Notes under the pieces: model-generated
What the model saw: only the letters and a program-made list of their open reading frames with translations
Told to the model about the DNA's origin: nothing
The model's database searches: none
In this document: positions 4,707-63,054 of the stretch, piece by piece
Numbering within the stretch: position 1 is the stretch's first letter
Layout: each line of letters starts with the position of its first letter
Program-made: the position numbers and the translations under genes
From: Mesodorylaimus sp. YZB2_4
Lineage: Eukaryota; Nematoda; Enoplea; Dorylaimida; Dorylaimidae
Direction of reading: 5' to 3'
NCBI GenBank assembly: GCA_030248295.1
Contig: JASANH010000647.1
Span: forward strand, 620,001 to 684,000
Length of the DNA stretch: 64,000 nucleotides

Positions 4707-6764
4707 CTAGTCTTTCATAGACCACAGACGTTCGATCAGTTGCCTATGCTGATCAGGGTCAATCCGGTAATCGATGATGACAGAGTCCGATGGCTTCTTT
4801 CGACCGCCCACATTTTCAGTCAGCTCAGTGCCGCCGCCTCCGTTATGCTCGCTGTGGCTGATTTGTGGTTCAGCAATCGTAATTCCTCTCATCGACGTCG
4901 TACTGAACTTGCCCGACGTGACGGCTTGTCCAGTGAGCCAAAGAAGCTTGAGTCGGGGATACTGCTTGCAAGCAACCATGCGGAGTTTCTCGCACGTTCG
5001 CGTAGTTAAAATTGGATTCAAGACCATGGCTGAGGCAAGTATATGGACTATAGCCACAAGGGCCAAGATACTATTGGCCGAATGACGGAAATCATTATAC
5101 CAACCGTACATGGGCATAAGAGCGACGAAGAACGAGCCCGACAGAATGGCATTGGTGATAACAGCTGGCAAGAGCATGGCCGTAATGGTGACGTTGTGCC
5201 AAGCAAGGAATCGTTCTTGTAAATTGTGCCTGGCCGTATTAATAGTAAAATCGAGCAGGTGCCTACGATTTCTTCGCAGTACAGAACAGTAGAGCAATAA
5301 TGTGAAGATGGCCAGGGCCAGCCAGCTAGCCATAATTCCATACAGGACATCCTCGGTCACCGCCAGCGCCAGATGACAGTAGCAAAGGGTCTACAAAGTA
5401 AATACTATGATGAAAGACTTGGCAAGTAGTGTTTGTATGGCTGAAAAAGGAAACTCGTACCCTCGACATTCTCCTAGAAAACAAGACCCCGCCGTGATCG
5501 ATCAGCCTATGGTCATAAATCAAGCGTGTCGTTGCTCAGAGAGGAAACCACCCTCCGGCACGTGAGTGCGATCTGCTACCGACGAATTGGCTCAGTTAAA
5601 ATGATGCCTAGACAGACTTTTGCTTTCTGCTTTTCTCCGTCCAAGAGCTGCATATGCACATGCGAAACAGATTATACAGCTTACTGTCCTACGTTTTGGT
5701 CGAGCTCGCAATCAGTTTTATTGGCCCCAAAAAGACCGTGGGAAGAGTTTAAAGGCAAGCTAGACAACAAACTAAGATTTCTCAGAGTGCCTCAACGTCA
5801 TTGAATTACTTTAGGCTAGTGTTTTTTGTGCACCCTCCTCCTACGTATGTATCAGGCAGGCAGTAAATTTACCAGATTTATAGCTTTCCCTCCACGCGTT
5901 CAAGCGGATGCCTCAATTTTAAATCAATTTGAAAACTTATTTTGTTTGACTAAATTACTTTGTTTGTGCAGCGCACATTCTTAAGTAACCCCCTGCCTAC
6001 TTTGTCATACTTAGTTACAGCACACGCATACCGACCTGGTTCAATAACATGGCTGACCAATAGAATAGGGCCACGTTGCAAATTCCGATTAACCAAGTGC
6101 TCACGAGATAAGCCTTGACGAATGGTCCGATCTGATCCACCTGTTGGCCATGTTCGTTCGTGCCACTTGAGCTGTTGACACCAGATCGCTGGCGGGTCAA
6201 GGCGTGCAGAGTACGACGCCTTTTCATACCAACCGTGCCTGCTGCCACGTCCCGACTGGACGGTGTTCGGGAGCCGCCAGCATGCGTGCCTTTGGGCGAT
6301 GTCCATCGCCAAGTAGCGCACAATCTCTCCAAGCCGATGCCGAACAGGGACAGCATCATTGACACGACCCCAATTATGTACAGGCATTCCAATAGGGCGC
6401 ATGAACTCGAATGCAATGCCAGATAATCAAAACCGAGAGCTGATAACGGCCAGTGATAAAAGGTAGAGCGCAGAATCAAACATCCGGCTGCCAGCGTAGT
6501 TCCCAATTCAGCATTGACCAGCAGAGCGCGTACATTCTGATGAAAGATGGCCGTACGGCGAAGTAGAGTGAGGAAGAGAAAATTAAAAAACACAGCACCT
6601 GCGGCCACGACTAGCAATGTCAGTGATAAAAGCACAAAGACATAATCAGGCGCCCTCAGGTCGCCACAGTTTAGTCTTCCATTCCTAGAACTCCCGTTCT
6701 CCCTTCCGTCCATGCTAGCTCGTGGTCCCAGAACAACCTTGCTCGCGTTGAGCCATGAATTCAT
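4707..6764 (-). CDS. Serpentine (Sra-superfamily-like) 7TM chemoreceptor
   Basis: Two exons, 6764..6036 and 5390..4707, give about 470 residues. The chosen ATG (6764) begins an extracellular N-terminus with sequons NAS and NGS. Exon 1 encodes TM1-TM4, with ERLCATW at the end of TM3, where Sra, Srab, Srb and Sre receptors carry their ER..AT motif. It then has an unusually long basic second intracellular loop (about 60 residues, with KRRR and many Ser/Thr). Exon 2 encodes TM5-TM7, then a short tail. The exon 2 acceptor (TTTGTAG, phase 0) is clear. The exon 1 donor is less certain: CAG|GTCGGT at 6036 is phase-correct, and CGT|GTGCTG at 6024 is the alternative. Such receptors sense environmental chemicals in nematode sensory neurons; the ligand cannot be read. 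Confidence 0.7.
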
Positions 6765-8341
6765 GGTCGTACAAAGGCAATTTCGAACAAAATGAAACTT
6801 TTCCAAACGACTTGGACGATGACCAGTTTTATGGTCCGCCAATCAACGATCTTCTCGAGCAATGCCTTTTTCTCTCTCGTCTCGTCAACTTGTGCCAGCT
6901 TCAGTCGGCTGATAGGCCTTGGCAGTCTACTCGAATTTTATACTTTCATCCTGACTGCCCTTCGGGGCGTAGAAGCAGGCCGAGTTGGTCGCTAGATCGA
7001 GGCGGAACGCTGTTAATGAGGGCAGGCGAGCAGAACATGGAGTGAGATGCGGAAGCGGGAGAGAGCCCGATAATCTAAGCCCTGGGAGTGAAGCAAACAG
7101 AAAGGATTCACGTGATATGACTATGTATTATTAGGAAGATACGGGTATCGCCCCAGAATACATTTAACGAATCACATTCTAGTGATCAGCACCTCCACAA
7201 AGCCGGACTACCATTCAATAGCGCCGAAAGCTCAACAAGTTTCTTTCGGCTCGCCGTTCACAGGCCTACTCGACTCGGCTCAAAGACTCGTGTTTGCCAG
7301 CAAGATAAAAAAGCAAAAAAGAAATCGAAATTCTACAGTGGGTTCAGGAGTGGCCAGGCGCGGTCGAGACCTTAGTCGGATGTATGCGCCTGGTTTGAAA
7401 ACAGGAAGGCGGGTTCGAGCAATGAGCTAACAAGACCCCTGTTCTCTCCCTTTCCTCTTTCCGAAGCCCCTCCCAACGATAACAAGGCATCGTGGGGCGT
7501 GCGAAATGAAATGCCAATCTAGATCGTTGGGAGCTTCGGTGCTCGTTTAGTCTGTGAAACCTAGCCACCGGCTCATATTCCCAAAGAAGCTAAGAATAAT
7601 CATTAGCTACGTGATGAACAGCCCTCGGACACACACTTTCTCATACCTCTTATTAACGCAACACGCGAGACCTACTCGTTCCATAATCACGCAAAAGCTA
7701 CCCCCGGGTCGTGCGCTGCGCGACCCATGCTACATACACCTAGAAATGACTCGGTCAGGCATCTCTGAGAAGCTATACTGTACGCACTAAGTCAAGCGAA
7801 AAGGAAGGGTTTCCTCCTAGATTGAATGAGGCTTCTAAACGGTCAACGAGGAGTCCTTACAAGAAAGGCTTGAATTGGTTAGAGCAGGTGTGGAGCATCA
7901 GCCGTACGAATATGCCACTGATGTACGTTCATGCAGTCCCATCAGCGCGCATAGTCGTCCATGACGACAAAACAATTTGACAGGAATTATTGACCTCGTC
8001 GGGAAACGGTCTTACTTACGTTGCTATGACGTCAATTTGATGCACTGCTGCGACCTCGTTACAGGAAACGGAAGTATATAGCCATAATCTGTCCAATCCA
8101 GGCTACGCACCTGCGTATATCTTCCTTAAAAATAGCAAGTTTCGGTTGGACAAGTTTGATCTTGTCCACATATAACACACACCTGCAGCGACAGCCCCTT
8201 TCTAGGTCAGCTGAAGCTTGACGAGCAGCTGAATATTAATTAACACCTAACCATGGCACGGCTCATTAGAATTTCAAAGCCAACAAGAAATCAAAGCAAG
8301 TCAAAAAGTATTGCCACAGAACTAAAATCGATCATAAAGAA
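6765..8341. other. Intergenic spacer
   Basis: Upstream region of the 7TM receptor and downstream region of the oxygenase gene. No convincing exon, RNA gene or repeat was found on either strand. Confidence 0.4.
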
Positions 8342-9319
8342 TCAGTAATATTTTCCAGCCAATCTGCTCATCCTCTCATTCACATAATCAGCATGAGTAA
8401 CCGGCTTGTAGTTCGGCGCCTCGTCGTCCTGCACACACGATGGCAAGCACTCAACCACGACTCCAGGATTCATGAGCAGAAAATACACCAATGACAGTCG
8501 TGCCTTGTTTTCGTGTTCCTCCGGCCATACCACCTTGTGCACAGTGGCTTTCCACTTGTCATTTGTCCAAATGGCCATGAAATCTCCCAAATTGATAAAC
8601 AGTGTTCCAGGTATTGGATCCGCGTATACCCATTCTTGATTTGCGTTCTTGACTTGCAGTGCACGAGGGCAGTCATCCGTAGCCAGTATGGTAAACGGTG
8701 TGCTGTCAGTGTGCTCACCGAAACGAGTCGACTGCATCGGTTTTGGCCTAATCGTTTTGGGATAGAAGTTTGCCCTGAGTATGTGCTCTCCTTGATGGCA
8801 TCGCTCAAAGAAGAATTCCTGACTCGGTGCGCGGGCGGCAAGAGCGAATAGTCTCATTAGCTTTTCACCTAATGATCTTACTTGCTCATAGTAAGACTGA
8901 ACACTAGACTTCGACTTCAGTCCAGGGGGTACATCCGGCCAAATGTTGTCAGGAATTGGGCGACAAAATTCGGACACTGGTCCAAAGGCGTACTTTTCAA
9001 CGGGATCATTTGGGAGTCCGATTCGGCCCATAAACGCATTAACATTGCGGGTTTCGAACGCCTCATAGCCACGGTCCAAGCTGTCATTTGTGTCAGCAAA
9101 TTGCAGTTTGTACTCCGTCGGCTGACCAAAGAAGGTACGCAGGTCGTGGAAGACGTTGCGTACGATTTCAGCCTCTATTCCATGATTCTTAACGTAAAAG
9201 CAGCCGGCAGCTTTGCACGCATTTGCAATCTGGTCGGTTAGCTTGTCCAGTTGACTTGTCGATTTGTGATTGATTGGTGTCAGGTCAACTATCGGGATAC
9301 CACTTGGGGACAACTCCAT
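8342..9319 (-). CDS. Isopenicillin-N-synthase-like 2-oxoglutarate/Fe(II)-dependent oxygenase, intronless
   Basis: A single uninterrupted 325-codon ORF begins at ATG (9319) and ends at TAA. It has the family layout: N-terminal IPIVDLTPI and CFYVKNHGIEA (DIOX_N region), then the jelly-roll core. The iron ligands are all present: H203 and D205 (GEHTDSTPFTIL) and H261 (ATVHKVVWP); R274 and S276 (KARLSLVYF) form the R-x-S co-substrate motif. Length equals the 300-350 residues usual for the family, so the enzyme is probably complete and active, using Fe(II), O2 and usually 2-oxoglutarate to oxidise a small molecule. The substrate cannot be told; related enzymes act in beta-lactam, plant hormone and other specialised metabolism. 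Most neighbouring genes have introns and this one has none, which is compatible with transfer from microbes or with retroposition; both are inference. Confidence 0.88.
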   Translation of the reverse strand: MELSPSGIPIVDLTPINHKSTSQLDKLTDQIANACKAAGCFYVKNHGIEAEIVRNVFHDLRTFFGQPTEYKLQFADTNDSLDRGYEAFETRNVNAFMGRIGLPNDPVEKYAFGPVSEFCRPIPDNIWPDVPPGLKSKSSVQSYYEQVRSLGEKLMRLFALAARAPSQEFFFERCHQGEHILRANFYPKTIRPKPMQSTRFGEHTDSTPFTILATDDCPRALQVKNANQEWVYADPIPGTLFINLGDFMAIWTNDKWKATVHKVVWPEEHENKARLSLVYFLLMNPGVVVECLPSCVQDDEAPNYKPVTHADYVNERMSRLAGKYY

Positions 9320-10519: not shown

Positions 10520-12140
10520 TCACTGCAGTGACATGCGATCCCTGGACATGTGATACTGACGGCAGATCAAAATTTCTGAGGAGTGCGCTGGCGAAAATGA
10601 CCATTGTTTTTTGGGTTTCATTGGAATCCAATCTTGCTTTGTCACCGGAACGCTGGGCGAACTGGGGGCGATAGGTATAAGATGCATGTCGCACTCTTCC
10701 GTATGACTTGAAGCTCGGGGAGCGCATGAACGTCGTTTATGTCTGATCGAAGCTGCACTCAACGGGTCCCGCTCTAATATCGAGGCATTCTTGACATCGG
10801 ACAGACGTCGTTGTCGAAAATGACAAAATAGCGATAAGAGGCAAAAATAATTCCTAAATCGTTTGCTAAAGGTCAAATAAATGAAAAAATTAGAGCTACA
10901 ATGGACCATAACCAAGAGATTGCTGAGGTCGATCAGGAAATAGAAGAGTGGCGTATGCAATGGCATGACTTCCGTGGGGTTTTCACTCTCTAGCGAACTC
11001 CAACTCTCATTTACACCATGCTGAGCGTCAAGTAATGCTTGTCCCGACGTGGAGAATGTCAAGTCTTCCGAGCTCAGTCCAAAAACGTCCATCGCATTCA
11101 GAATACAACCGAGGCAATTGCACGCCAGAAAAAATGTGGCGACAACAACCATCATGGTTGCAGTTGCGTGTTCTTTACATTGACGACGTGATAAAGAGGC
11201 CCGGAAGTGATTAGCTTGCCGAATCGTAACCACAACCATCGTGTTCAGGAATAATAATACTGCGAACGGTAGGGCGAACATAAATATAAAGTATAGCCAA
11301 TGCCCGTATATGTTCATGTAATCTCGATTGGCTTTTAGTGCCTGCACTACTTCTATTTCAGTGTCATTCCTCTGTTTCAGTTCGTATTCCCAGAACCGAC
11401 AAATGTTGTACATTACACTACAGATGGCCACAACCACCAATGCATAAACAGCTCTGCGCCAAGTGCACATTGTCCGAGCTGTGAACGGGTGCGAAACGGC
11501 CACGTAACGTTCAACAGTGATCCTGAAAATGTCCAAGATTACTCGACATCTGGTGTAGAGGGCATGGAAAACGAACATGTCACAGTTTTGTAATGGAGGC
11601 CATTTTTATCAGAATTCCTGTACTTTCGCCAACTGGAACCTAAGCACTGAACTATTGAAGGGGAGGGATAGAGCCAAACTCATGTAGCCAATAACAGCGC
11701 GATACTCACAGAACCATGGTCCAGACGGAACCAGTCTGAAAGATGCTGGTGAAAGGATACAAATAAACGGTCATGACGGCTACGGCCCGTTCTAATCTCT
11801 CGATGCACGGATTGTTGGATATGTAAGACATCGTAGCCACCGAACTGTACAGGGGAACTCCAGACACCAACAGGGCAGCATCGGTGATGGCAAGTCCAGC
11901 TAACAGTGTGTTTATGGAGGAGACTAATGGGCGATGGGTGAATATGCGGACCGTAATGATATTAGCAATCAGTCCAATCACTGCTACCACGATCATAAGG
12001 ATACCACACAGAAGACTAGCGTCAGCGTACGAGCTGTCATCAGCGACGCCGTCGTTGTCGTCGTGAGGCATTGTTAGATTCTGACCCCACGGTTCGCTTT
12101 CGGCTGAAGAATGATGAAACCAAAAGTTGTTCTCGTCCAT
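10520..12140 (-). CDS. FMRFamide-type neuropeptide receptor A (class A GPCR)
   Basis: Exons 12140..11710 and 11522..10520 (donor GTGAGT, acceptor TTTTCAG, phase 2) encode 477 residues. The N-terminus is acidic with sequon NLT. TM1-TM7 are all present: HRPLVSSINTLLAGLA after TM1, VERYVAVSHPF at the end of TM3, and NICRFWEYEL in the region before the second extracellular loop, a signature of the FMRFamide receptor/frpr group. TM7 ends NFFIYLTFSKRFR, in which NPxxY is replaced, as in related FMRFamide receptors. The third extracellular loop is enlarged by about 30 residues (with NES). The C-terminal tail is long, basic and Ser-rich. It is predicted to couple amidated neuropeptides to G proteins at the plasma membrane. 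The intron falls just before the ERY motif, unlike receptor C. Confidence 0.85.
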
Positions 12141-15100
12141 ACTGCTGCTATCGATTGGAGGGTCCTCTTAGGCAAGGCGGGAAACGGCTAGGTTTGGGTC
12201 TTTATTGGAGAACATCGAAGACTCATCTTTGACTGATGGCTGCAATAAAAATGACGTACATTTTTGGCCACAGCTTCATGTTTTTTCAAGACAGATAACG
12301 CGGGGAGAGGGTGGCTACCTTGCTAGGAAACTGCACAAGTGCTTGTTGCTCGAAGAGAAAGCTCTCAGACACGGACTAGCTCGACATCGGAAACCGATCC
12401 TCCGTCTTTGGTAAGACGTTGAAAATTCGATTAGCCCATGACGAAGCTTTGGCGCGGAGGGCTAATGAATTACTGGGACTTGCAGAGCCAAAGCTGTCCT
12501 GAGACCGCGCCGCTCTTCCTGGTCCGCGGCACGAAAGCCTCTCCTTTATTATTACTTCAATCTCGGACTCCCTGGACTGGTCGCCTTGCAAGGTCACATA
12601 AGCAAGACATAAACCAAACGACCACACGGCCCGACGTAAGCACGCGCCCTCCGACTCCGACCCCATAATTCGGGTGACGCTGAAAGTCTTGCGCAAAACC
12701 TACTCCAGACATGTTTCATTTAAAAACTATTAGCGAATGAAAAGGAATCCTACTCAGCATCTAACACGGATATGCACGGCTACACATGTCTTTGAGCTAA
12801 TGTTTGTCTGCTTCATTTTCCTGAACAAACATAACGAGCTAGGATAACGGATAAAAGCCCTCATACGTTCACGTCGGCTATTCCCAGCTTGTCCCCGCAC
12901 GAGCTCGTAGGACTAAAATTAGCGGTTATTACTTGTCATGTGCACAGGTAGTGTATCAGTAGACAAGAGTTTTTGAAGCGGAAAACAGCTAGGGAGGACA
13001 GGAAACAAGGTGCTTGAAAAAAAATGTCTTGAGAAAATCCGTGATGGGAGTGCCTATGATACCCCGTGATACACATGACAGTGCCGGTACAGTAAAATAT
13101 AACTCATCATTCATCAATTCATGTCACTGTCCAGTTTGAAAGCCTGATTGGCCCTCTGCATTGGAATCATACCCCACGCTCTAAACTTTGAGCACAAGTC
13201 ATGATCTAGGCAGCGTCCATCTTCTTCAACTGACTTTCTTTGACATTTTGGACATGCCCATCATTCACCAGAAGCCTCTAAACACTCAACCAATTTCAGC
13301 AGCTTGTCGAAAAAAAACCTGCTGAAACGCAAGCCATCCCCGGCTGGTTAGCCATTGAAGTGGTTTTTCCTCCCTGCTGCCTTTTCTGTGTGAGCCATAG
13401 GTTAGAAGAGAACAGGAGTAACGGATATCGACTAAAGAAGAACATATCCCCTGTGCTTACACACTGCCAACCTTGTTATCACCGAGAAGCCACAAATTTT
13501 GATGGAGCCAGTCGCACAATTCCACCCGTGACACACTTGTTATCCTCTTGCTTTGCTTTCAGGGGCGCCTGCCTTGCCATTATCTCAGATGCAATGAATT
13601 GTTCGGCTCGCTATCTAAAAAAAGACAAAGCGGGAGAAAAATTATTACACAAATTACCCGACCTCTAAAAAATGGGAATGCTTGTTACACTCGTCCAGTG
13701 AGTCGAGTGATTTGTGGGTGGGTAAAGTATCAGAGCAAATTTGGATATTATGACTGACGAACTCGATCTCTAACCCCTCGAGCAGGCATAAACGTATGAA
13801 ACACCAAAAACCAAATGAGGCAAAACGAGCTGCTCAAATGGTCCAGACGGAGAAGACAATAGCATATTTTCGCTTAGGACTCTTAGAAAACGGAAATCCG
13901 CCAGAAACTCGAAAAGCCCAGTCTCTGAGTAAGCAGCAGAAACCTATTACGTTCGCTATATTCTCTGAAAATGCTCGGTATGGCGGAAAAAACAAAACTT
14001 CCCTCCTAGCTGCTTATCCAGCTTTGCCCTGCATCAGCTAGGGTATAAAAGCCATTTTGGGTTAACAGCATCGACGCTTTGTCACTGTCGCAAATGACGA
14101 ACACTTTGCGCACAAACATTACCCAAAGGCTGCTACTGGAAGATGAAGACCATGGACAGACATTGGTTGCTTGGTATTACGTGTTTACGGGCTTGTTCGT
14201 TCCAGCGTGACATCATTGTTCACACTTATCGCGTAAAAATAAATCAACCGTTTCCTTGGCGCACCATCGGGAAAAGACTATCACAAAATTTGTTTTTCCA
14301 GAAGTTTTTCAAAGAAGAAATAATAAGCTTGTGTGGCGCAATGGCGCAAGAGGAGTTCTTGCAGACGTCTGCGGGTTCTAGCTAAATGATGCCCAACTAG
14401 TGATCGAAACTCAATGGAGGCAGACGATGCCTAACGAGTACTGCAAAAAACACCTTCTCTGAACACTATGCATGCACAGACTAGGCTTGGACAAAACGAT
14501 TCTATGGCGAATATTATTTCCGTTAGGTACGCGCCAATAATTGAAATGGCACTTTTGGATTGTTATCGAGAAATTATGTGCCGCAGGAATTTAGAAAAGA
14601 GTTAAATGAGATCATTGAATCGGAATTCTAGTCGCGCCGCCTATCCACAATCGCATTCACACCAAGGGGTCAGTCGCCAAGCTTTTGGCTTGGCTGAGCG
14701 AGTTGACATATCTGGATTGGAGTAGTATGTGATCCCCGCCAAAACATTAAAACATAATGTCAAGAAGTCACTCGACCTCGCCCTCAGTCTTCTCATTATT
14801 CCTCAAACAAACAGCTTTTCCTCGCCTCCTTGTCTTACGACCGCTTTTGCAGAGGCCGGGGGTGACTTGGCTAATCTTCACCAACCATATGCAATACCAG
14901 TGAACTAAAGCTCAGGGGCCGATGAACGAAAGTACCAAATGGAAGAGGACGAGTGTAGGCGCTTCCGTGCGGGATCTTGTAACTTGTGCGGACCCAATTT
15001 ACGTTTCCTCATTTTGAACCTGTCCCAGCATTATCTATGCTGGAGATCTATCTGGGGAACGGGTAAAATTATACACGCTGTTCTCCGGATGCGTTAAGAT

Positions 15101-19990: not shown

Positions 19991-21409
19991 CTAGGCTTCG
20001 TCTTGATCACTGATGACACCATCAATGTCATTGTCATTATCACGGTGCAGAGAAATAGGACTATAACTTTTGACTCGTATATTCATTCTAATGTCATTGG
20101 CCATTTGAGGAGTGAGCAAGTTGGAGCTGACAGTGCTTTCCGCGCTGACTTGTTGTGTAATTCCGTTCGGTCTTAAATAGTTGTGGTTGGCACTTGTGAG
20201 CAGTGGTGACAGCGCTGTCATTCGTTCATCATTTTTCGCTTTTTCCTTTTTACTTTCTCCTTCGACTACGATGTTATGGTCGTTGGTAGACACTTGCATG
20301 TACTTGATGCATCGACTAGGGCATAAACGAGATAGCATGCCGACCAGAAGTTGACGGTACTTTTGACTAAAAAAGTAATAGACAATTATGGAGCTGGCAG
20401 CATTGGTGACTACTAGAACATTGGAGATGTCGTTCAAGGCGAATAGCAGAGCCATGTGCCGCGGGTCGTAGAACCAATCCGGATGAGCCGCTTCCAGAAT
20501 GTTTAAAATGAAAAGTAAAGTATAGCAGCATATGAAAGTGATCACCACGATCACCATCATAATGGCCGTGCGATGCTCGCTGCGTTCTTTTCGATTCAGC
20601 GCTCGACGTCGTTGTCTCGACTGGCAAATAGTACGGATGATCAGAGAGTTTAGAATTACCAATATGGTAAATGGCACGGCGAAATGGGTCACGAGAAACA
20701 TACCGATATAGTAAATATTCATATAGGCCTTTCGATTTCGAAGTGCTGGTTCCACATCCACGTAATCTCTTACTTCAATCTCAGTTTCATTCGTAGTTTC
20801 ATTTTCGGGCATGTCACCATAGTCTAAGCGAAATTCGAAAAACCTGACTGCGTTGTAAGCAATGGCGAGGACGCACACAGAAATCAAGGCCATTCGAGAT
20901 CTTTGAACCGATGACCAGTTAGTTTGAAATGGTCTGCACACAGCTTGGTACCTTTCGATAGTTATAATCACGAAGGCCCAGACACTCGCGCTTTGCATGG
21001 TCAGTGCCAAAGGATAGATGTAAGCTGTACTGTAAGCTTGGGCGCTAAGCAATGTAGGCGTCTTATAATAGGCATATAATCCGGGTATGACAAAGGTGGG
21101 CACGGCGAGCAGACTGAGAATAAAGTCGATATAACCCGTCCCCATCAAAAGCACATTGATAGGTGATCGCATGGACGGGTTCGAATAGATAATTATTGAA
21201 AATACGTTGCCAACCAAACCGAATACGCACAAGGCCAGTGTTAGCCAAGCGATGGCAAAACTGATTCGGCGATAAGCGGTCGGGCTTTCACCTTCTTCCA
21301 CATTTGCACTGCTCGAACTTACTTCCACGATACTAACTGCTGTCGTGGTGGTAACATTGAATACAGTAGTCATAAGGGTCGAGCTCGTAGTTTCGGCGAC
21401 ATGAGCCAT
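19991..21409 (-). CDS. FMRFamide-type neuropeptide receptor B (class A GPCR), intronless
   Basis: A single 472-codon ORF from ATG (21409). The N-terminus is Thr/Ser-rich with sequon NVT. All seven membrane segments are present in one exon. Diagnostic features are NPSMRSPINVLLMGTGY after TM1, IERYQAVCRPF at the end of TM3, AYNAVRFFEFRL before an extracellular loop with three sequon-like N-x-T sites, and VVITFICCYTLLFILN in TM6. LNDISNVLVVTNAASSIIVY in TM7 is typical of the FMRFamide/myosuppressin receptor group. The tail carries a CPSRC pair that could be palmitoylated. It is closest by eye to receptor C (both have 'F..R(F)FE(F/Y)' and a PDWFYDP/PEYFYDP segment before TM7). The ligand is unknown. 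Confidence 0.9.
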   Translation of the reverse strand: MAHVAETTSSTLMTTVFNVTTTTAVSIVEVSSSSANVEEGESPTAYRRISFAIAWLTLALCVFGLVGNVFSIIIYSNPSMRSPINVLLMGTGYIDFILSLLAVPTFVIPGLYAYYKTPTLLSAQAYSTAYIYPLALTMQSASVWAFVIITIERYQAVCRPFQTNWSSVQRSRMALISVCVLAIAYNAVRFFEFRLDYGDMPENETTNETEIEVRDYVDVEPALRNRKAYMNIYYIGMFLVTHFAVPFTILVILNSLIIRTICQSRQRRRALNRKERSEHRTAIMMVIVVITFICCYTLLFILNILEAAHPDWFYDPRHMALLFALNDISNVLVVTNAASSIIVYYFFSQKYRQLLVGMLSRLCPSRCIKYMQVSTNDHNIVVEGESKKEKAKNDERMTALSPLLTSANHNYLRPNGITQQVSAESTVSSNLLTPQMANDIRMNIRVKSYSPISLHRDNDNDIDGVISDQDEA

Positions 21410-24400
21410 AGTTATAATCTCCAGTATAACGTCTGACTGTGCACCTTCTCACGAGCTCATCGCCGGGACTGCACTCAAATGAGCTTCTCTTTCTGAAAGA
21501 CCGAAATGGGATAAACCAGGCAGCTGATCAACTATCAAGGTGAAAAGCGTTTTATGTGAACGAGTCAATTACAGAGCACGAGAGTTGTTGGGAGAATCGG
21601 TTTTTAGAAGGCAGGTGGTCTCAATCGGTTCTAGTAGGTAGGCAGGGAAAAGTAAAAAAGGGTTGGTTGTCTCGCGGCCAAATGCGTTCGAGTAGTCTAA
21701 CAGAAAACTCCGCTCGAGGTTCGATCCATAATGAGCTTTGGAGTCAACTGTGGTAAAAAAAACCGCGAGCGCGCATGAATGAGGGCAAGAGGGACGAACA
21801 TGAGAAATCTTCTGGGAACTTGTAATAAAATGCATCAATCGTTTTTTTGTGCCAATGCTAAAAAAGCAAGCTGGACGTGTGTCAGACTTTCAATTGAGTC
21901 TAAGATTTGCAGCTCTAACGGTCTCCTTTCGGGGATCGGCGCGGAGTTGGATTCTAAGCTACGGAATGCCTGACACGCGCCTGGGGCCATGCGAGGCTCG
22001 AGGCGGACAGCTAATGATTGCCCATCGTCTATTTCGACTTTTTCCGGTCTATAATTGGCAGAGATTCCAGGAAGGGGATCGATAGATGTTCACTTCCCGT
22101 CCACGGATGGGAGCAGATATATGAACACACTCTTTTCGTTTACTCAGGCGCGTCCTCCACTCTTCTCTGGCTTCCTCACAAGCTTGCACGAGGACAAGAT
22201 TGCCCTGGCACTACTTACTTTACGGGTACAGTCGTCGCGGGACTCCACAAAGCGTGTTACTAGCTGAGAGTCCATGCATCGTTATCGACACCCTGAGAAT
22301 AGTCGAGACGGGCGTCTAGCGAGTTGCCCACAAATCGGTCATTCTCTATCCGAGGCTGGCTGGGTGACTTCCCCAAGCCCGACGACGGCGGCACAAAGCT
22401 CGTGGACGCGGATAGTGTTCACCCGGCGCGTGACAACCGAACCAAGCCTCTGCTCAAATGCCTGAAAACTTAAATGAAGTTCATCCCTCATTTTCGCAGC
22501 AATTTTTTTAGCGGGTTGAACTGAATGCCATTCGAAAATCTTGGTGACTAGGTAATCGGAACAAAGCGAGCTTATTGATCGCTGGACTCCGAAAGACGTG
22601 ACGGAAATTGGCTCATCCCTTAACTCGATCTACTCCAAACCCGCTTACCCTCTTTCCGTCGTTTTAACCACCAACTGAAAAAAATCTAGGCTTTCACTCA
22701 TCGAACGGAGGAGTAATCACTGTCGCGCCAAAGTAGATAGACCGGACTATCGTGACGGACACAGGTCCTCCGTCAATCTGGCTCGTGAGAAAAGGAGCTT
22801 TTATGGCCACCCCCTAGTCGACTTACTTTCCCGTATTGTCCCTTTGACATCTTGACTCATTATGCCCCTATGACGCCAATGGTCCCGCCTCGAGGCAGTC
22901 ACGTTGGGCTATTTGTCTTTCGGCTAACCAAAGAAGAAATGACCATGCATATTAGGAGAATGGTTCCATAAAATAGTCAACGGTTGCATATGGAAACCGA
23001 TGAAAGAGTGCCACTGCATCTTTCATTGATTAACACACTCAGACTGTAATCCATGAGCCTTGACGGGCTACGCGTCGCAGAACTTCATTTGGCTAGTTCT
23101 TCATGACTAGCTATGTAGCCTGTGGCACCTCTCTCTTTGTTAGCACCTTTTGATAAAAGTCAGATCCGCTCATCGATCCTGGACAACAAACGGCTTGTTG
23201 ATCATGTCCGAGTCTCCGAGGCATTTGGCCACGCCCTTTCATAGAAACGACGAGATGTACAAAGACATTATCTCTCGGCACCGTGTCCTCCACGAGATAT
23301 AGAACTCGACAAGGCGACCCGGGCACGAGTTGTTCGAGCAATCTCGACAAGCATAATACCGTCTAAAACTGCTTTTGAATCGACGGTCTAATATGCTCGA
23401 GTTAACCAGGTCTCTCAACTCGTGGCTCCGCTTTCTAGTTAGGTATGCAACAATTCTTGAAAATATTAGGCAGAAAGTTGAGAAACATGATCAAGAAGGT
23501 AGGATTACACAAGTATCTAACAAGTGCTGAATACTTTTATTTGACTCTAGCGCATCCATGCGTGAGGCTACGAGGCAAGTGAGGCTGACTTTTTCATTAG
23601 GGAGACAGCAGATAGAATTGCCAAAGACTCGCGGGCATTTTGAAATGCAGATGTCCGGTTGTTGATCAACCAAGATCGAGTCAAGTTCGATTACGGAGAG
23701 GGCAGGGTAATCAGTATGACCCCGTAAGAAGAACCTGGATCCGACTTAGTCAACAGGTTTAAGACGACGCCAACCCGGAGTCCTTACCAGGATACAATGA
23801 GAAGTCGATGGGTCCAACAATAAGAGTGGCTTTTACCTTTACGCCTTCAAGCCGATGGCCAGCTTTGAAAGATATTAGGGTGGTTTCACACACGTGCCTA
23901 AATTCTCAAGCCCTGACGCAGGTAAAAATCGAATATGTAAATAATTAATTGAAGAAGTATCGACTCGATGCACATACCGATTGGTGGCCAAGTATTGGCT
24001 GCTGGCGCATACATCAACGCCTTGACACCTTGTCCGAATACATTTCTCATTTTTTAAAAAATACTTCTCGAGGGACCGACCTGTCCTGGAATATATATTA
24101 ACCGAACCATGCTAAACCTGATATTTTTGCTTGATGAGCAACGCCTACTCGTACTATAAATCGCTCCTACACAGTTCATATTTGAGTAATGAAACTTTTT
24201 GAATTGTAGCCCACGGTGACATTAGTTATCAAAGCGACGAAGCGGTATTTCCTCTCTCTACGACGACAATGAAAGCTAACGGGTCAGCCAGAAATGCTCG
24301 CAAAGAAAAGCTCAAAAACACACTTAAACGGATTTGAAAATCTGGGAAGCGTAAAATCCATGATGGAACTACTTTTCCATGATTTGCTTGGCTGAGAGTA

Positions 24401-27608: not shown

Positions 27609-29057
27609 CTAGACTAGGTCTGCTCTTTCATCGGCATTTTTATCAGCTTCGAAGACGCTGTCTTTCCTTTGAAATAAATGTCTTTTCTTGCTATCTAGTG
27701 ATTGAGAGCTTCTTCGATCGGGCATGGCTCGTCGATATTTTCCAGGAAGAAAGGGCCCAACGGCCATTGAACATAGTGATGCGGCTGGAATGTTGGTCAT
27801 TGTCGTGTTCGCCCAGAATGCTTGAGAATAGGCAGTCGAGTAACCACGGTTGATTGCTGAAATGTCAGGTTTCCAGTCCGCACACGAGCCAAATGGGAGC
27901 CACTTGAATCCGCAACAAACTTTGTGACTAGTGTACGCGAAAAGGCGTCGATATCGTTGACTACACGCGTAGTAAATGAAGGCTGTGGTCGATGTGTTGA
28001 CGACGACCAGCAAGTTCCCCAAATCTAATAAAGCGAAGCCGATCCATTTAGTCTCAGGATCATAGAAATACTCGGGGGTTACGGCCTCCACGAAATTCAA
28101 GACAAATGGTAACGTGTTTGTGATGAGAAATACGACTACTATCAGACCCATCATGATCGTCGTCTTATGCTCACTTTTCTGTTTTCGTCCCAGCATCAGA
28201 CGTTCACGACGTGCTTTGACAATGGACATGATCATGAGCATGTTCATGTAGATCAGGATGGCGAACGGGACTATGAAATGAGTGATCAAATACATGGCTA
28301 CGTAGTAGAAGGGCATATACGCCGGGTACACAGTAGTGTTTTTCAAAAAAGTTTGAGGTATCGTTCGATTTGTGTCGTTGTCAAAATTCAGGTGATATTC
28401 GAAAAATCTAACCACATTGTAACATATTGCCGATATGGTGACGGCGATTAGGGCTCGATACGATCGCTTGATTGTACTCCAACGCGCCTTGAGTGGATGG
28501 CAAACCTAAAGTGAGCGTGAGTAAATGACACGATGAACATCCCTCAAGTGATCTTGGTCAGGCCAGATGGCAAAGGGAGTACAAGTGAGATTGACATGAG
28601 TGGGCTCCCAGGAAGAATCGAACCCACACAACTAGAATTTCTTGTCCTAACTTACCGCGATCCATCGATCGAATGCTATAACCATAAAAGTAAATATGCT
28701 AGCCGTCTGGGCCATCATCGTCAGCGGGTACAGGAATATAGTGAAGTAGGTCATAAGCCAGTCCAGTATGTCCAGTTCGTAACACTGGTACCACATGGGC
28801 ACTACGAACGAAGGTATGCAGCAGGCTGACAGGACTAAATCCATTGCGCTTAATCCGGCCAAGAGGACATTGACCGGCGATCTCATGACCCGATGCGTGA
28901 AGATGTAGATGGACACTGCATTGGTCACTATGCCCATCACACTCAGGCTGAACGTAAACCAGGAAGTAGTACATCCAAATATCGTCAGCATCTCTAGTTC
29001 CATGGCTTCGTCACTTTCACCGATGGATACGTACGATTCATAATCTTCTCGCTCCAT
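27609..29057 (-). CDS. FMRFamide-type neuropeptide receptor C (class A GPCR)
   Basis: Exons 29057..28656 and 28505..27609 (donor GTAAGT, acceptor CACTTTAG, phase 0, 150-bp intron) give 432 residues. The N-terminus is short and acidic. THRVMRSPVNVLLAGLSAMD follows TM1. TM3 ends FDRWIA, and the intron falls directly after it, so exon 2 resumes VCHPLKARW. CYNVVRFFEYHL precedes a loop with sequons NDT, NRT and NTT. TM6 is VVFLITNTLPFVLN and TM7 ends with ST..FIYYACSQRYRR. These features place it in the FMRFamide/frpr group with receptors A, B and D. The Arg/Lys/Ser-rich tail could be phosphorylated. The different intron position from receptor A argues that the introns were gained or lost separately. 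Confidence 0.88.
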
Positions 29058-31472
29058 TCGACACTCCGACGAGGACAGGTGCTTGACTTCAGCGATGTGT
29101 CGTCCTGAAAAGATGGCTGAAGCTAATTCCTATTACTATTCATGAGGCTGTTGACTTCCTCGATGACAAAATATGTCGCAGAGTAGTATATCATAGAGGA
29201 CCCTCGTGACCAAGAATAGTCGGGCGGGGATAGATGGCCATTCACATACAGCAGTAACTTAGTTAGCGATCAGGTTTAGGTAAGTATCGTCAAAGGAGGA
29301 GCCCAACAGTCCAAACTATTTGATGAATAGAGTTAGCAAAAAGTAGGCAGACTTGTTTGTCAAGAATCAAGAATTTTGACACAACCGGATCCGATGTTGA
29401 GTGCTATGTGAGATAGGTCCGGGAAAAAAGAATCTTTCATGCTAATTTTCGAAGCTAGCTCCTGCTGCTTTTCGTGACTTCTAGCGTGCCTCAATCGGGG
29501 AACTCAGCTCGGACATGAGCACCTTATTCTTCGGTACTTTTAGGGCTGTGCAAACCACGCAGCAAAAAGATCGGGCTCGCGCTCACGAACCGAAAGTACT
29601 CGTACTGTACAGTGTGACTAAAAGGCTTCTACATAGTACCTGGCCATGGCGAAAGATTTACGAGTGCCTACCTTGTTGACCCCATTGCCCTTATTTGTCA
29701 CTCACGGAAATTTTTTTAGAGCTCGCTTCGTTTCATCTTCGTTATCAGGAAAGGAGGGAGCGCCGATGCACCCATTAGGAAAATATTAATGGAACCCTCT
29801 AACTTTCGAGTCCCAGGCATCAATTTTTCGTTAAAGTAACCTATTGTACTGCCTACAAGCGCTAGCTAAAGCTTCCTTGAGCACTTCCTACCTATGCTCA
29901 TCTTTCATTAGGTTTGTCTCAAATGGCTCGGATAAAAAAAGAACAGTCGAGTGTAATAAAATGAAAAATGCATATGTTCAGATGGCAAGCTTATCGCCTT
30001 CTTTCAGGAGCAATGCAGCAACTGGAAAGGGGGGGAGATGGCAAGGAAAAGTGCAAGCTGGAGCAATTTCTCCTGCACACAACATGCATCGTCACCAACA
30101 CTTGCCAGCAGGGTGCAAATAGCCTGACAATGCAAGCAGTCGAAAGCAGGGCGGGAGCCGGGTACTGGATCCAAGCTTAGATCAATATTCTAAGAGGCAA
30201 TACCAGTCCAGTGGGCATTAGAAAAAAATTCTAAGACCAATGGCGGCGTCGTTGTTTTTTTCTGTCGCATGTTGCGATTCTCTCAGTTCTCGCACCGTCA
30301 CCGAGACCACTGGACTCTAAGAGGAATCTACTTGCTTTAATTGTGAGATCAAAAGTAATTGAAGCAATGCAGAAGCAATTGGCAACACCCATCTTGAAAA
30401 TAGAATAAATTGCATGGAGGAGTTTTAACGAAATAGCAAGCAGCCCGCAAGCAAGCTACCTACTAACGAGTCGGCAGGCACCTTAGACCAGGCTTTTTAA
30501 TTACCGAGACAAATCGGCGCTAGAGCGGCAAATGCAGAAAATATGCTGATTGTCAGTGCAGCTTTGTACATCGTCTCAGGACAGGAACTGCAATGCGGCT
30601 TTGGGCGAAGAGCCCGTCGGAGCTTTATGAGGTTAGCGCACGAGGAAGCATCGAGCCGCCTTTCAGCTCTGAAACAATATGAACACAAAAGATGAAGATG
30701 ATAACATGTTTATAAAAACCAGGCTCAGAAGACATAGCCTTGAAAAGAATGGATTTCAGGAAACAAAATACCGAATTCGTCTAGCGCCGCAGGATGGGCA
30801 AGTTAGGTAATGTCAGCAAGTCTGCGCTAACACAGACACGTCGGGTGACCTTCCTCCTCTACTGTCGACATATTTACAGGGCCTCGCAGGTCGCACTGAC
30901 GCGAGTATAATTATCTGCAGACAGACTTGACGCAGTATTCGCTGTCCCACCCTGCGCTGATCCATATCAGCATGAAGCATGTACCTCGTGCTCTACCTAT
31001 TGAAGATTTCAACCCGCCCCGTCAATATAGTAATCATCAAAATAAGTTAACACGGATTACGTCCATGGTGTAGACCTGTCATGGAGCTAACAAGACATAT
31101 TTTCTACAACTACACCGCCAGGTGCATACTACAAAATCTATTTTTCCAATTATAGAATGTATTGATTTAGTAAAACTCACTCGTTCAACAGAAAGAGAGA
31201 ATCACAAAATAGGTTGAATTCATAGGCAGGTAGAATTTTTTTCGAAACTTTTTTGTTTTATCCCTTCTCCAAAGTCTCGAGCCCGCAGACACAGCGCTCT
31301 ATTTACCAGCTAGCTGTGCATTTTAGTCATTACACACTTCAAATCAAAGATCGAGTCCAATCGAAACCTTTTGGGAATATACCGCGCATTGACTATGAGC
31401 GATGAAATACCCTTGATCGTGATAACCTTCTTTGCAGGAAATTGGCAACAAAGAAATCTTCGTGCGCTAAGC

Positions 31473-50702: not shown

Positions 50703-52094
50703 CTACACAAAAACGAGCACTTCATCATCGTCATTCTGGCTGCGTATCTCATCTCGATTACACTCAAACACTACATTGGTTTCTTGGGTCAAATTACTCT
50801 CGACCAACCGAAGGGTTTCCAGTAAATGTCGCTTATTATCTTCTAGTAGGTCCCTAGTCACACTGGCTCTAGGTACGTCCAAAGCTGAAGGCGTAACAGT
50901 CGTGGCCGTTGTGCTTGCTGACATGCAGGTCTCTTGCTGCTGGGCAGCCTCGACGAGGTCAGTGAGAACGGGTACCATCTTGTCCTTACCCGGTTTTACA
51001 ACCACCGCATTTAAGACAGAGTAATTCCTAGTACCTTTGTTGGTGGTGAACGAATGCCCGTTGCACGATCCGTGCGGGCTGGAGGCTAGCGAAGGGCGCA
51101 CATGACGGCGTAAGCAATACCAGAATTCTCTTCGGAATTTGGTGGAGAAACGGGCGTAAACGAAGATGTTGAATGCCGGGTGGGCCAGCACAAGCAGGTT
51201 GTTGAGATCACTTACAAATTCAAAAGCAGGGTCGGTCGGCTGATAGCCCAATACCTCGTAGCCGTTTAAGAGCCATGCCAGTGAATTGCAAGCAAAAAAT
51301 ACGGCCACGACGACTAAGAGCATGAGGGTGGTCTTGGCTTCTCCTCTTTGCTGGGCACTCATCTGGCAGCGGGGTCTGTTCACACTGGCTTTACGAACGC
51401 CAGCCATGACTAGAATGTTAAAGACGAATATGGCCAGAAATGGGATGGAAAACAAGAAAGCGAAGTACATCCAATGTACATAGACGGTTAGGTAAATGGG
51501 GTCTGAACGGAGCGATATGCTGGGCAATCCTTCCTCGTTCACTTCGTACTCCCAAAATCTGCACATGTTATACAATATGGATACTGTAGTGACCACCACG
51601 ACGGCAATACGCGCTCGTCGCACTGTCAACTCCCGCCGGGCCACAAAAGGGTGACACACACCCAAGTACCGTTCGAAGCTAATCAGGCACATAGTCAGTA
51701 CCGATCCCATTTGGGCCATGTTAGAGAAAGGGTAGAGAACGGTCATACAATAGGCCAGGGCGGCCAGTGTGGCGTGTCGACGATCGAAAGAGTATATGCC
51801 TAATAAGGAATACATGGGGCCACCAGCACATAGCAGGATCAGATCAAATGCACTCATCGCTGTCAAGAGGACGTTGACTGAAGAGCGTCTCGATGGATGA
51901 CCGAAGTGCCAGACGGCGTACCCATTCCCGATGGCGCCCACTGCGCTAATAGTGATCATGGAGAGACTGCATGCAAATCCCAAGTATTCGTAAACGGTTC
52001 GATGGAATTCTACGGTGCCATTCTCATTAGTCTCAATCAAATCATCGTGATCAGGGTGATCGGACAAGTCCAGAATATCGAACGTCTCGTTCAT
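50703..52094 (-). CDS. FMRFamide-type neuropeptide receptor D (class A GPCR), intronless
   Basis: A single exon of 463 residues from ATG at 52094; the frame is open 12 codons further upstream, without ATG. The N-terminus is acidic with sequons NET and NGT. HPSRRSSVNVLLTAMSAFD follows TM1, SFERYLGVCHPF ends TM3 and LYNMCRFWEYEV is the group signature. TM6 is VVAVFFACNSLAWLLN, and LNNLLVLAHPAFNIFVYARF is TM7, with the modified NPxxY. CRFWEYE and ACNSLAWLLN resemble receptor A more than B or C. The long tail (about 130 residues) carries a Thr-rich stretch and an acidic end. It presumably binds an amidated neuropeptide; the ligand is not predictable. Confidence 0.9.
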   Translation of the reverse strand: MNETFDILDLSDHPDHDDLIETNENGTVEFHRTVYEYLGFACSLSMITISAVGAIGNGYAVWHFGHPSRRSSVNVLLTAMSAFDLILLCAGGPMYSLLGIYSFDRRHATLAALAYCMTVLYPFSNMAQMGSVLTMCLISFERYLGVCHPFVARRELTVRRARIAVVVVTTVSILYNMCRFWEYEVNEEGLPSISLRSDPIYLTVYVHWMYFAFLFSIPFLAIFVFNILVMAGVRKASVNRPRCQMSAQQRGEAKTTLMLLVVVAVFFACNSLAWLLNGYEVLGYQPTDPAFEFVSDLNNLLVLAHPAFNIFVYARFSTKFRREFWYCLRRHVRPSLASSPHGSCNGHSFTTNKGTRNYSVLNAVVVKPGKDKMVPVLTDLVEAAQQQETCMSASTTATTVTPSALDVPRASVTRDLLEDNKRHLLETLRLVESNLTQETNVVFECNRDEIRSQNDDDEVLVFV

Positions 52095-52598
52095 TGCGCG
52101 ATCGACACTTTGGCACTGTGAGATAGTCACAACTCTGCCTAATCACAGTAGGAAAGGAACAATATTTCGAGTCGTTTGCACGTCCACCCTCCGTCGGCCT
52201 CCATCAGTCGATGTTGTCCAATACTCGTACTTCCACAAAAAGTCGAGTCGAATCGAGTCTTAAAAGTAAAAGGAACAAATTAAGACCACGGGACGCTCGA
52301 CAGATCACAAACGAGATCGCTAGGCAAGGTTAAATGCCAGCCTCTGAATGCCATCTGTGCGGTCAATTGAGCTGGCCTATAATGAGGAGTGCGCGATGAA
52401 GGGAGGGGCGTCCATGTCATACACAGCTCTCACAAACAGTAACAAGCAAAAGCCACGTTCTTCAGTGCGAGAGGTGAACTAACTAGCATCGGCTCTCTTA
52501 TCATCAATACCCCACTAGCAGGCTCTCAGAATGGGCTACAGCCAATCAGGACTTTCTAAGCTGCTTTCTTCCTCTCAATTACCAGGAGCGAGCGCAGT

Positions 52599-54487: not shown

Positions 54488-57400
54488 TCAGAAATTTGCA
54501 CTGTATAAACGCCGAATAAATTTTTCCAATTCGCCCACATCTTTTATCAATTGTTGTTCGAACTGTATCCCACCAGCCAATATCTGAGCGCCGATATAAG
54601 CAGCGTGATCCCGCCATGGAGATGTGCGAACACGTACTTGAACCGACGAGGCTACCAAAGGAGCCAATTCCAATTCCAGCCTTTCCACCAGACCAGGAAG
54701 CAAGGAGGCACCGCCGGCTAGATATATGTTCCTGTACAGTATGCGCCGACTGTCCAAGGGTGAACCTTGAATAGCGTGATAAATCAACTTGTGCAAGCCA
54801 TCGATATCGAATCCCCAACGCTTCGGCTTGAAAATACCTTCGGGTGATGTGAATCGAGATGCGTCCACATCGTAACCTCTGAAAACGGGAGGAGTGTGGG
54901 CATGCTCTATGATAAGATAAATAGCCCTTACTTTGGCATTTCAGGAATCGGGTTAAACTGATCAATATTGACGTGAGTATCGATTTCGGACGGATTTTGA
55001 TCATAGCGTTTTGCTTCGTCATCAAAATCAGCAGCAATGTAGCAGGACTAGAATCAAAGGACGGTATACGTGATGAGAAGCGCAGCATAGTCAGGCTCTA
55101 GCAAAGCAACTCACCTTTTCCATAACATATCTCAGAATGTACTTCTCAACCTCGGACATAAACGAGTATGGCGTCCAGTTACGTTCGATCAACTTCGTCC
55201 TTAGGCCCTCGGATACGTTGTGGCCACCATACGGCAACGATACGATGGCGCTTTGAACTACATATCCTAAAACGGCGACGATGTAAGCATTATATGGGCA
55301 CATCATATCCACAGCTTACCATCAATAACAGGGACAATGTTCAAGCGATCACCAAAATCGACCACAACTCCAGTCGTCACATCGTAGGCGTATAAAATCA
55401 AAAACGGTTGTCGCGAAACGAACACACCTTTGACTCCGAAATCAGCCAGTAAAGTCCGCATGACATCGCCCACCATCCCGATTGGTGCGTTTTGGGGAAC
55501 AGAGAGCATAATCTAGAATACAGTAAAACCTGCCTGCTAACAGTAACTCCTACCCATGACTGGAAATATTACCTGATATGATTGAGAATCAATTTTCAAA
55601 TCCTCGAAAACTTTGCTAATCAGATGCTTCACTATTTCCAAATCCATGCTGTATCGATTGAGCGCGGGTTGAGTAGGCGTAATGGGATGAACAATGGTAC
55701 CCTCGTGTCGGACCAACGGTGACAAAGCATCGAAACCAGACACTATGGTTCCTAAAACGTGAACTCCACGTGAACAGAGGAGAGAAGCCCCAATGACGTA
55801 CTTACCATCCGGTAGAATACAAGCGATGCTCGGGAAATAGGTCTGCGGTAATGAAGGCTCCGCCGTCAATAATCCAGCACGAATAGAGCAACTGCCGATC
55901 TCAATCACGCAAATATTCTAAAAGTAAAAAAAAAACAAGTTTGAGCCCACTGATAAAAGCTCTGTATTGGTATATCTAGAGCTACATATCCGTACAATAC
56001 ACTTGCCTCATCAGCATGCGGTACTGCTGGATAGACAGGTCTGACAAAGTTGACTGCGGACGACGCGCTCGCATGGCTTAACATAGCAGATCGCCATTTG
56101 TCCAGTAAGTGCGGCGGGTATCTTCAAAATACAATGGACACTCACAATGGAATGGCCGACCGCCAAACCACACTTACCGTATGGTCAACAGCTGACCCTC
56201 CTTCGCATTGTGCACCACAAAGATACAAGCATTCTTGTCCAAGTCCACTTCAGCGCCCGCCAGTGCCAGCTCACCAAACGGAAGGGCGTCAGTATTTGTG
56301 TCCTGAATGTTAAGGGTAGAAGTCAGGGTAACAGCACACCTTGATAAGGAATAGAAGCCCGTCTTCACCCCACCTTGTTTTTAGTTCTTTAAGTCATGAG
56401 CTAACGATGTGAAGAAATCAGCTCAGTCTTTCTGTTTGCTCAATTTGATAATAGAAGCTTATCATCCGACGCTCTTCCTTTATTCTATGCCAGCATTTGC
56501 AACCTAGGGCACAGGGCACAGTCTTACCTCAAACCACTGCAACCTTCCTTCCCTTGTTCGAAAATAGTGTGTTCTCCACATGGTTTCCGATGCCACCACA
56601 GCTCGCATATTCATGGGCAAATGTTCCATTTGGCCTTCCATGTTCACAAACCGCTGCCGCTTCTCCTCGGGACGCGCCTCGTATCGAACAGTGTACAAAT
56701 GTCGTAGCAACGACCTCGGATCCCATTCTCGAAATGTATCACTCTCGACGGCTGCCTCCTCTTGCGACGAAGTCTTCGATCTTACTGCCAACGGTTTCGG
56801 CTTTTCCTGTTGGTACTGCGACTTTGACGTTGGAAGTGCCACCTCGGGCGAAGCACTGGCTGTTCGGCGGACGATTTCTGTCTCTTCAAAAGACGAATGC
56901 GGCGATTGGGAAGACTTGCCATTGGAACTTAGATTCAGTACGACCACATCTGGCAAATCGTTTTGCGCAGTCTTCGATCCGCCGTTTCGTACTGGACTCG
57001 GATAATCGACGTGATGCTGATACGCGCCCGGACTGTCAGGGCTGGCAGCCAATGGCGGGGCAGACTCCGATGGGCCAGGATGTTGGGCCAGTCGCGGAAC
57101 AGGTGAGTGGTGTTGACGAGGAGTGGTGGTCGTGGTAGTCTCTGACAAGGAAAGCGTTTTAGAATGTTCACCAATCTTTGATTCATCAGTTCCACTCGAG
57201 TACGACGAATCGCGTTGTTTTTCGTCAGTTAGACTCGACATAACAGAACTTCTTTTCGAGTCGCCACCGTCCGAAGAATATGAACGAATGCCCAATGAGT
57301 TCATGTTAGTGTACACTGTGCTGGAACCGTTCTGCTGATGATGCTCGTTTTGATGAATGCCGTTATCGATACTTCGACTGACCGCGTTCTCAGGTGGTCG

Positions 57401-58075
57401 TTTCTTCAATATTGATTTCAATGGTCTTTGTTCAGTCGATACTTGCTGCGGTTGGGGCGATAGGGTGGTAGCACGATTTGCACAAGTCGTGCCACTCGCG
57501 AGATGCTGAGATGGTGGAGCGGAAGCTCTACGACTCCTCACTTGTTCTAAGATACGTTCACGACTGGCGCGTAATTCCAATTCGTTCGGCTTTGCCGGTT
57601 TCGAAGTTTGGACTGGGGTGTTAGACTGTTGTAATATAATATGTCGATTAGGGTAATTAGCAGATAAGAGCGTGCTGGCAGTAACGGTAATAGAAGAAGG
57701 CGATTTAAGGCTTGAACTGGAATTGTAACCAGATTCTGGTGAAATTTCGACGGGTAAGACCGGACTGGGCGATACTGAAGCACCGCTTCCCGCAAAAATA
57801 TCAGTCAATACGGACTGGAATGCTTGCTGCCTTAAAATATCCGCCCTGGTAGGCGGCGGGTCGGAAGTAGGGTCGTCAGATAGCTCTTTCAATTTCTTCT
57901 CCTTATGCAAAGTGCTCAATGACTTTCTCGCTTGTTGCTGGCAAGAAGCGACTGTTTGAGGCGAAGAAAGCTTTTGAGACTGATCGCGTTGTTCATCGGC
58001 TGCTGTCGAACCCGTCGCAAGTTTGGGCTGCGCGGCCGCTCCTTGGTAATCTTCGTGTCCGTGCCGTCGACGACG
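54488..58075 (-). CDS. PH-domain/actin-related fusion protein (multi-exon; 5' end uncertain)
   Basis: Exons 58075..56528, 56302..56178, 56121..56007, 55917..55573, 55512..55320, 55266..55115, 55047..54932 and 54878..54488 join in consistent phases to give 994 residues. The first 420 or so are disordered (Ser, Pro, Gln and Thr runs). A PH domain follows: WRTHYFRTREGRLQWFE, then PFGELALAGAEV, ACIFVVHNAKEGQLLTIR and the closing helix LLDKWRSAMLSHA with its invariant Trp. Some 25 residues later an actin-like domain of about 400 residues begins with ENICVIEIGSCSIRAGLL. It continues through IMLSVPQNAP, VVDFGDRLNIVPV, SLPYGG and NIYLAGGASLLPGL to a C-terminal helix. It probably links phosphoinositide membranes to cytoskeletal assemblies; this is inference. 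Exon 1 starts at an acceptor, so upstream exons exist. Confidence 0.75.
55918..56006 (-). other. Predicted GC-AG intron between the PH and actin-related parts
   Basis: The donor reads GAG|GCAAGT, the consensus of the rare GC-AG class, and the acceptor is CTTTTAG. Phase 0 on both sides joins PHADE to NICVIEIG. No GT donor nearby preserves the frame. Confidence 0.6.
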
Positions 58076-62994: not shown

Positions 62995-63054
62995 CATAAC
63001 GAAGAATAGAATAACGCTGACTGTCAATGCAATGAAGATCAGGAACAACGTCAT
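62995..63054 (-). CDS. Putative first exon encoding a 20-residue membrane anchor
   Basis: ATG at 63054 opens twenty strongly hydrophobic codons (MTLFLIFIALTVSVILFFVM) that end exactly at a possible donor, ATG|GTGCGT, in phase 0, the phase needed by the coiled-coil exon at 62102. This could anchor the downstream protein in a membrane. The evidence is only hydrophobicity and phase; the ORF is also open somewhat upstream of the ATG. Confidence 0.25.

Follow-up and report, generated by a model that had tools for sequence, protein, structure and literature searches.

Gene structure of the PH-Arp locus

The window analysed here is a stretch of 64,000 nucleotides from the dorylaimid nematode Mesodorylaimus sp. 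YZB2_4 (contig JASANH010000647.1, positions 620,001 to 684,000). On its minus strand, between positions 58075 and 54488, it harbors a predicted gene, here referred to as PH-Arp, in which the removal of eight introns yields a single open frame encoding a disordered segment, a PH-like domain and an entire actin fold. When a small first exon at 59790-59758 is included, the model comprises ten exons with consistent phases and a stop codon at 54488, and its translated product is 987 residues long. The exon at 58075-56528 encodes a long Ser/Thr/Pro-rich region, which appears disordered by eye, followed by the first half of the PH-like domain (codon-bias scores of 51.4 and 46.0 in two scans). The middle strands of this domain are encoded by exon 56302-56178, which was assigned on the basis of phase match and Pfam alignment, while its closing helix and the linker to the actin fold are encoded by exon 56121-56007, which follows an AAG acceptor, ends at a GC donor and contains an in-frame ATG at 56084. 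The actin fold is distributed over six further exons, all placed through the spliced frame. Exon 55917-55806 encodes the first strands and a diverged P1 loop (EIGSCSIRAG; Pfam and alignment), 55751-55573 the diverged D-loop region (Pfam and invariant-column comparison) and 55512-55320 the equivalent of Gln137 together with the second phosphate loop (VVDFGDRL; alignment), followed by exons 55266-55115, 55047-54932 and 54878-54488 (all Pfam), the last of which carries the LAGGASLLPG loop and the terminal stop codon.

The original prediction had placed the transition from a PH domain to an actin-related protein on three exons. Two of these, 56302-56178 and 56121-56007, are present on the minus strand; their phases match, and the joined frame stays open to 54488. 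The third, 55917-55573, is not a single exon, as it is composed of exons 55917-55806 and 55751-55573 and an intervening 54-nt intron (GTAAGT...TTTTAG) which is open by chance and the removal of which fits the actin alignment.

Both splice signals of the linker exon, TTGAAG at the acceptor and GCAAGT at the donor, are unusual. A reference set of introns was derived from nine actin-family loci of the same genome. Of the 33 introns returned, 27 were kept; the remaining six were considered unreliable (L012: three; L016: two; L019: one), and two of them end in AAG. The acceptors are CAG or TAG in all 27 reliable introns and AAG in none, while among the eight core introns of the PH-Arp gene seven have a CAG or TAG acceptor and AAG occurs only before the linker exon. 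A GC donor is found in one of the 27 (AAG|GCAAGT, contig C143), and GC-AG introns therefore seem to be used in this genome. The linker exon shows only a weak codon bias, although the model frame scores highest (4.0 vs. -1.8 and 3.0). Other acceptors for this exon were considered by eye and ruled out: a TGA lies in frame immediately upstream of the AAG site, so that the AAG at 56122 is the sole acceptor reading into the PH helix. This acceptor is the weakest point of the reading as one gene, and is likely to be a site of regulated skipping.

A linker exon of 115 nt is nevertheless needed between the two domains, because two surplus bases remain at the end of exon 56302-56178, while phase 0 is required by the first actin exon. 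Spliced straight to 55917, exon 56302-56178 reaches a stop within a few codons, and direct joining to the exon at either 55917 or 55751 was rejected since it leads to a stop or to a frame that does not match actin. The flanking exons are thus in phase only with the linker exon in place, which bears out the earlier view that two separate genes are unlikely, and by this phase logic a single gene encoding both the PH-like and the actin parts is the better reading of the sequence. The ATG at 56084, previously pointed out as a potential independent start, is present and in frame, and it is the only start codon available to the actin exons upstream of the first loop. A separate actin-like product could be initiated there, and the locus could then yield two products, a PH protein and an actin-like protein, through separate promoters or through trans-splicing to the linker exon. 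The atypical AAG and GC signals flanking this exon would accord with such an arrangement, as would an AATAAA at 56484 in the intron following the first PH exon. We nonetheless consider it quite improbable: a spacer is lacking, with the start falling inside the frame of the PH helix, the PH frame runs into a stop when the linker exon is omitted, and the AATAAA precedes rather than follows the end of the PH part. The same AATAAA (56484, minus strand) may represent an early poly(A) site, which would give rise to a truncated product ending inside the PH part.

Further upstream, exon 62102-61428 on the minus strand encodes 225 codons with two coiled-coil-like stretches and a disordered middle, the heptads and the disorder having been judged by eye. 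It is of phase 0 at both ends, has no stop and carries a GTAAGT donor, and its codon-bias score is 25.1 for the segment and 21.9 in frame, the latter with the exon end one base off. When this exon was searched against the genome, its own locus was the sole match. The exon beginning at 58075 follows a good acceptor, is of phase 0 and lacks a start nearby, and between 61428 and 58075 the only coding segment from the scan is the one holding the small exon at 59790. The gene probably continues upstream to at least 62102, and the simplest reading is that exon 62102-61428 is joined to the exon at 58075, the evidence for this junction consisting of phase and codon bias. The extended version, with a coiled coil, a disordered region, the PH-like domain and the actin fold, would be 1221 residues long. 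Pfam searches with the coiled-coil and disordered part retrieved no family above the cut-off (best E-value: 0.11 for the coiled-coil exon and 3.9 for a longer piece), and a PDB sequence search with the coiled-coil exon retrieved nothing at E-values up to 1.

As an alternative, the first coding exon may be the small exon at 59790-59758 (minus strand; MEFGEDHFDDW), which lies just past TTGCAGG in phase 0 and has a weak score of 3.5. A speculative candidate at 62995-63054 on the minus strand encodes a 20-residue hydrophobic stretch (MTLFLIFIALTVSVILFFVM) and has a phase 0 end; its codon-bias score of 0.0 was taken with the exon ends one base off, and the wider segment 63099-62812 scores 9.9. A competing first exon of phase 0 (MSKTPSKRV...) is located outside the window, near C17:684820-684918. 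Also upstream of the window, on the minus strand of L011 (around 3300-7200), lies a long coding-looking stretch which by eye seems to be interrupted by stops, and which is perhaps a decaying gene.

The PH-like and actin-related domains

The PH-like domain comprises residues 490-586 of the 987-residue product. Its identification as a PH domain in the original prediction is reflected in the ranking of the Pfam search, where PF00169 was the best of 24,736 models (E-value: 0.037 with 97 residues and 0.061 with 148 residues), but not in the scores, which at 15.0 and 14.3 bits, respectively, lie under the cut-off of 25.1. Likewise, the domain search of the joined protein that had been called for identified the actin family PF00022, but PF00169 was absent at E-values up to 1. 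None of ten shuffled versions of the PH-like region matched any Pfam family, while an NCBIfam search of the PH part gave no match. Searched against the PDB, the region showed a sole match at E-values up to 10, namely the PH domain of AFAP1L2 (KIAA1914; 2cof), a protein which to our knowledge lacks an actin fold. The E-values at three query lengths (0.25, 0.28 and 0.38) are not significant alone. The strands and helix were assigned by eye and from the AFAP1L2 alignment. The closing helix with its Trp, as predicted, is spanned by one AFAP1L2 alignment in which Trp is paired with Trp, whereas the Pfam alignments and those from shorter queries end earlier.

A profile was further constructed from four PH sequences including AFAP1L2, and the score of the PH-like region against it was reached by one of 20,000 shuffles (16,613 were scored and the remainder counted as lower). 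The region also ranked top among 420 tiles, drawn from the frames of the window and from the protein itself, when its own overlapping tiles are set apart. With a control profile from which AFAP1L2 was omitted, 391 of the 20,000 shuffles and seven of the 420 tiles, at least one of them an own overlap, score as high as or higher than the region, which this profile no longer separates from the background. The failure of this control, together with the sub-threshold Pfam and PDB scores and the whole-protein scan without a PH match, would be accounted for if the domain preceding the actin fold were unrelated to PH domains. That reading is unlikely, however, as the general searches of Pfam and the PDB both ranked PH first, the PH consensus features (EG, W..YF, G.L and the closing Trp) can be recognized by eye and the four-sequence profile score was almost never attained by shuffles, even though this profile includes the best match. 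The region before the actin fold is thus, with fair confidence, considered to be a PH domain. The phosphoinositide-binding motif, which we take to consist of basic positions in PH strands 1 and 2, retains by eye one of its three usual basic positions (MEGQMEHLP...WRTHYF), leaving the proposed phosphoinositide-driven recruitment to membranes unsupported. With most of the basic lipid motif missing, a protein is more likely than a phosphoinositide to be the ligand of the predicted domain.

The presence of a complete actin fold in the predicted protein is certain, with PF00022 aligning to residues 609-969 of 987 (Bitscore: 148.2 against a cut-off of 27; E-value: 3.4e-43; profile positions 6-392 of 410). 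A PDB search retrieved 154 distinct sequences at E-values up to 0.001, and the best 60 of the 154 are all named actin. The best match, Actin-1 (6i4g), is identical in 108 of 345 aligned residues (31%). While the complete fold is shared with conventional actin, PH-Arp has diverged from it in the P1 loop, the D-loop region, the adenine pocket and the C terminus, and carries a large N-terminal extension. Among the positions which we take to serve nucleotide binding and hydrolysis in conventional actin, G13, S14, Q137, D154, G156, D157, E214, G301 and G302 are retained, while D11E, N12I, G15C, K18R, G158R, H161N, K213M, T303A, Y306L and K336D are substituted relative to Actin-1, and the full set is not intact. 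An NCBIfam search with the actin part returned five bacterial or archaeal actin families, none of them over the cut-off.

The distribution of these losses was determined from an alignment of twelve sequences (eight actin or actin-like loci of the same genome, the Arp1-, Arp2- and Arp3-like loci and Actin-1), which contains 61 invariant columns. PH-Arp retains 30 of these, namely 10/35 in residues 11-116 versus 20/26 in residues 137-352, indicating that conserved residues were lost mainly from the first phosphate loop and from the D-loop side, and that most of the second half has been retained. The nucleotide pocket and the D-loop side of the predicted protein are therefore degraded, and its actin part looks non-catalytic. 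Conservation of the barbed groove is partial, with seven of the eleven positions assumed to form it retained and four changed (G146D, L349G, T351Q and M355Q).

Relatives of PH-Arp and its possible function

A search of the genome (145,146,385 bases in 1067 contigs) yielded 49 actin matches, which we grouped into 15 loci and named by eye as six conventional actins, two actin-like genes, Arp1, Arp2, Arp3, Arp4, Arp6, an Arp11-like gene and PH-Arp. The Arps named are identical to the set given for Caenorhabditis elegans (Arp1, 2, 3, 4, 6 and 11) in Table 6 of PMC2441452. As expected for a nematode, the genome also contains 133 matches to the cuticle collagen domain PF01484 and 27 to PF01060, two families typical of this phylum. 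The GC-AG intron on contig C143 mentioned above (AAG|GCAAGT) belongs to a diverged actin-like gene (L020, at around 106 kb). The PH-Arp gene is present in a single copy. Its protein product gives 29 matches in the genome at E-values up to 10, nine at its own locus and 20 confined to the actin part of the query, and among the scored candidates no relatives of the PH part were found in the genome up to the same E-value. The identity of PH-Arp is highest to the actins (27-31%), compared to 26% for the Arp2-like locus. A small tree, from which the Arp4-, Arp6- and Arp11-like loci were omitted as their matches are partial, places it beside Arp2 (support: 0.876), although with a branch length of 1.6 this placement may reflect long-branch attraction. 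A divergent actin fold is shared with Arp2/Arp3 and Arp11, but genes for Arp2, Arp3 and an Arp11-like protein (by eye) exist separately from PH-Arp. No class from Arp1 to Arp11 was both its best match and without a separate gene, Arp5 and Arp8 references lying outside this comparison. Given that the genes named by eye as Arp1, 2, 3, 4, 6 and 11 sit elsewhere in the genome, PH-Arp is probably none of these, and the predicted protein is classed as an orphan actin-related protein.

Filactin of Dictyostelium is likewise an actin with a long N-terminal extension, but according to PMC2441452 its actin domain shows high homology to conventional actin, which is not the case for PH-Arp, and the term "pleckstrin" is absent from the main text of that paper. 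A full-text search of open-licence papers revealed no PH-actin fusion among the matches listed, in agreement with the initial statement that this architecture is not widely described. As such a search spans papers and not sequence annotation, orthologs may already be deposited in databases under automatic names. The combination of a coiled coil, a probable PH domain and a diverged, probably inactive actin relative seems to be unusual.

Arps are mostly stand-alone subunits that are placed by other proteins, and Arp11 in dynactin and Arp2/3 at branch points act as pointed-end or terminal subunits. From the domain composition we infer, tentatively and at slightly less than even odds, that this one nematode gene encodes a modular orphan Arp, with a coiled coil, a long disordered region, a PH-like domain and an actin fold, that would function as a fixed terminal subunit. 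With much of the nucleotide site and the conserved D-loop side lost, but most of the second half and some of the barbed-side groove retained, PH-Arp would most likely neither cycle as an ATPase nor copolymerise freely. Its actin part could be fixed to a filament's pointed end or within a complex, where the changed nucleotide site would render the subunit static, and the partly kept groove combined with the loss of D-loop residues could allow it to serve as the last subunit of a filament on the pointed side. The coiled coil, if it belongs to the same protein, would pair PH-Arp, and the PH-like domain would bind a partner that positions it. The seeding or capping of filaments suggested previously is possible for the putative protein.

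Some nuclear Arps serve as protein-binding platforms without contacting filaments, and PH-Arp may similarly be a pure adaptor in which a pseudo-enzyme actin fold forms such a platform. This explanation, to which we assign roughly one chance in three, is nearly as likely as the role at a filament end. The altered nucleotide pocket would be compatible with it, as would the low share of columns invariant in actins that PH-Arp retains (64/167, 38%), which is below that of Arp1 (121/167), Arp2 (98/159) and Arp3 (62/135), while the persistence of seven of the eleven barbed-groove positions argues against it. More speculatively, and with a low probability, the filament-end reading could extend to a new class of tethered Arp, coiled-coil and PH-containing and catalytically dead, which would terminate or template actin filaments at a selected site. 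A localisation signal and a filament-end subunit would then be combined in one polypeptide. With an Arp and its placing module fused in one protein, the link between site and filament end would become testable through a single gene, and the degraded pocket would reveal what a solely structural role demands of the actin fold.

Other genes in the window

An intronless gene on the minus strand (8342-9319) encodes a 2-oxoglutarate Fe(II) oxygenase with a DIOX_N domain, for which the best solved structure by sequence is thymine dioxygenase (E-value: 5.1e-32). Its further matches are, going by their names, presumably mainly plant and microbial enzymes, and the gene may possibly have been acquired by horizontal transfer. 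Receptor-like frames with long exons can furthermore be observed on the minus strand at 10523-12167, 19994-21448, 27612-29129 and 50706-52142. Those at 19994-21448 and 50706-52142 show matches to 7tm_1 and Srw, while the other two are similar to them by eye, and together the four frames form a local receptor cluster.
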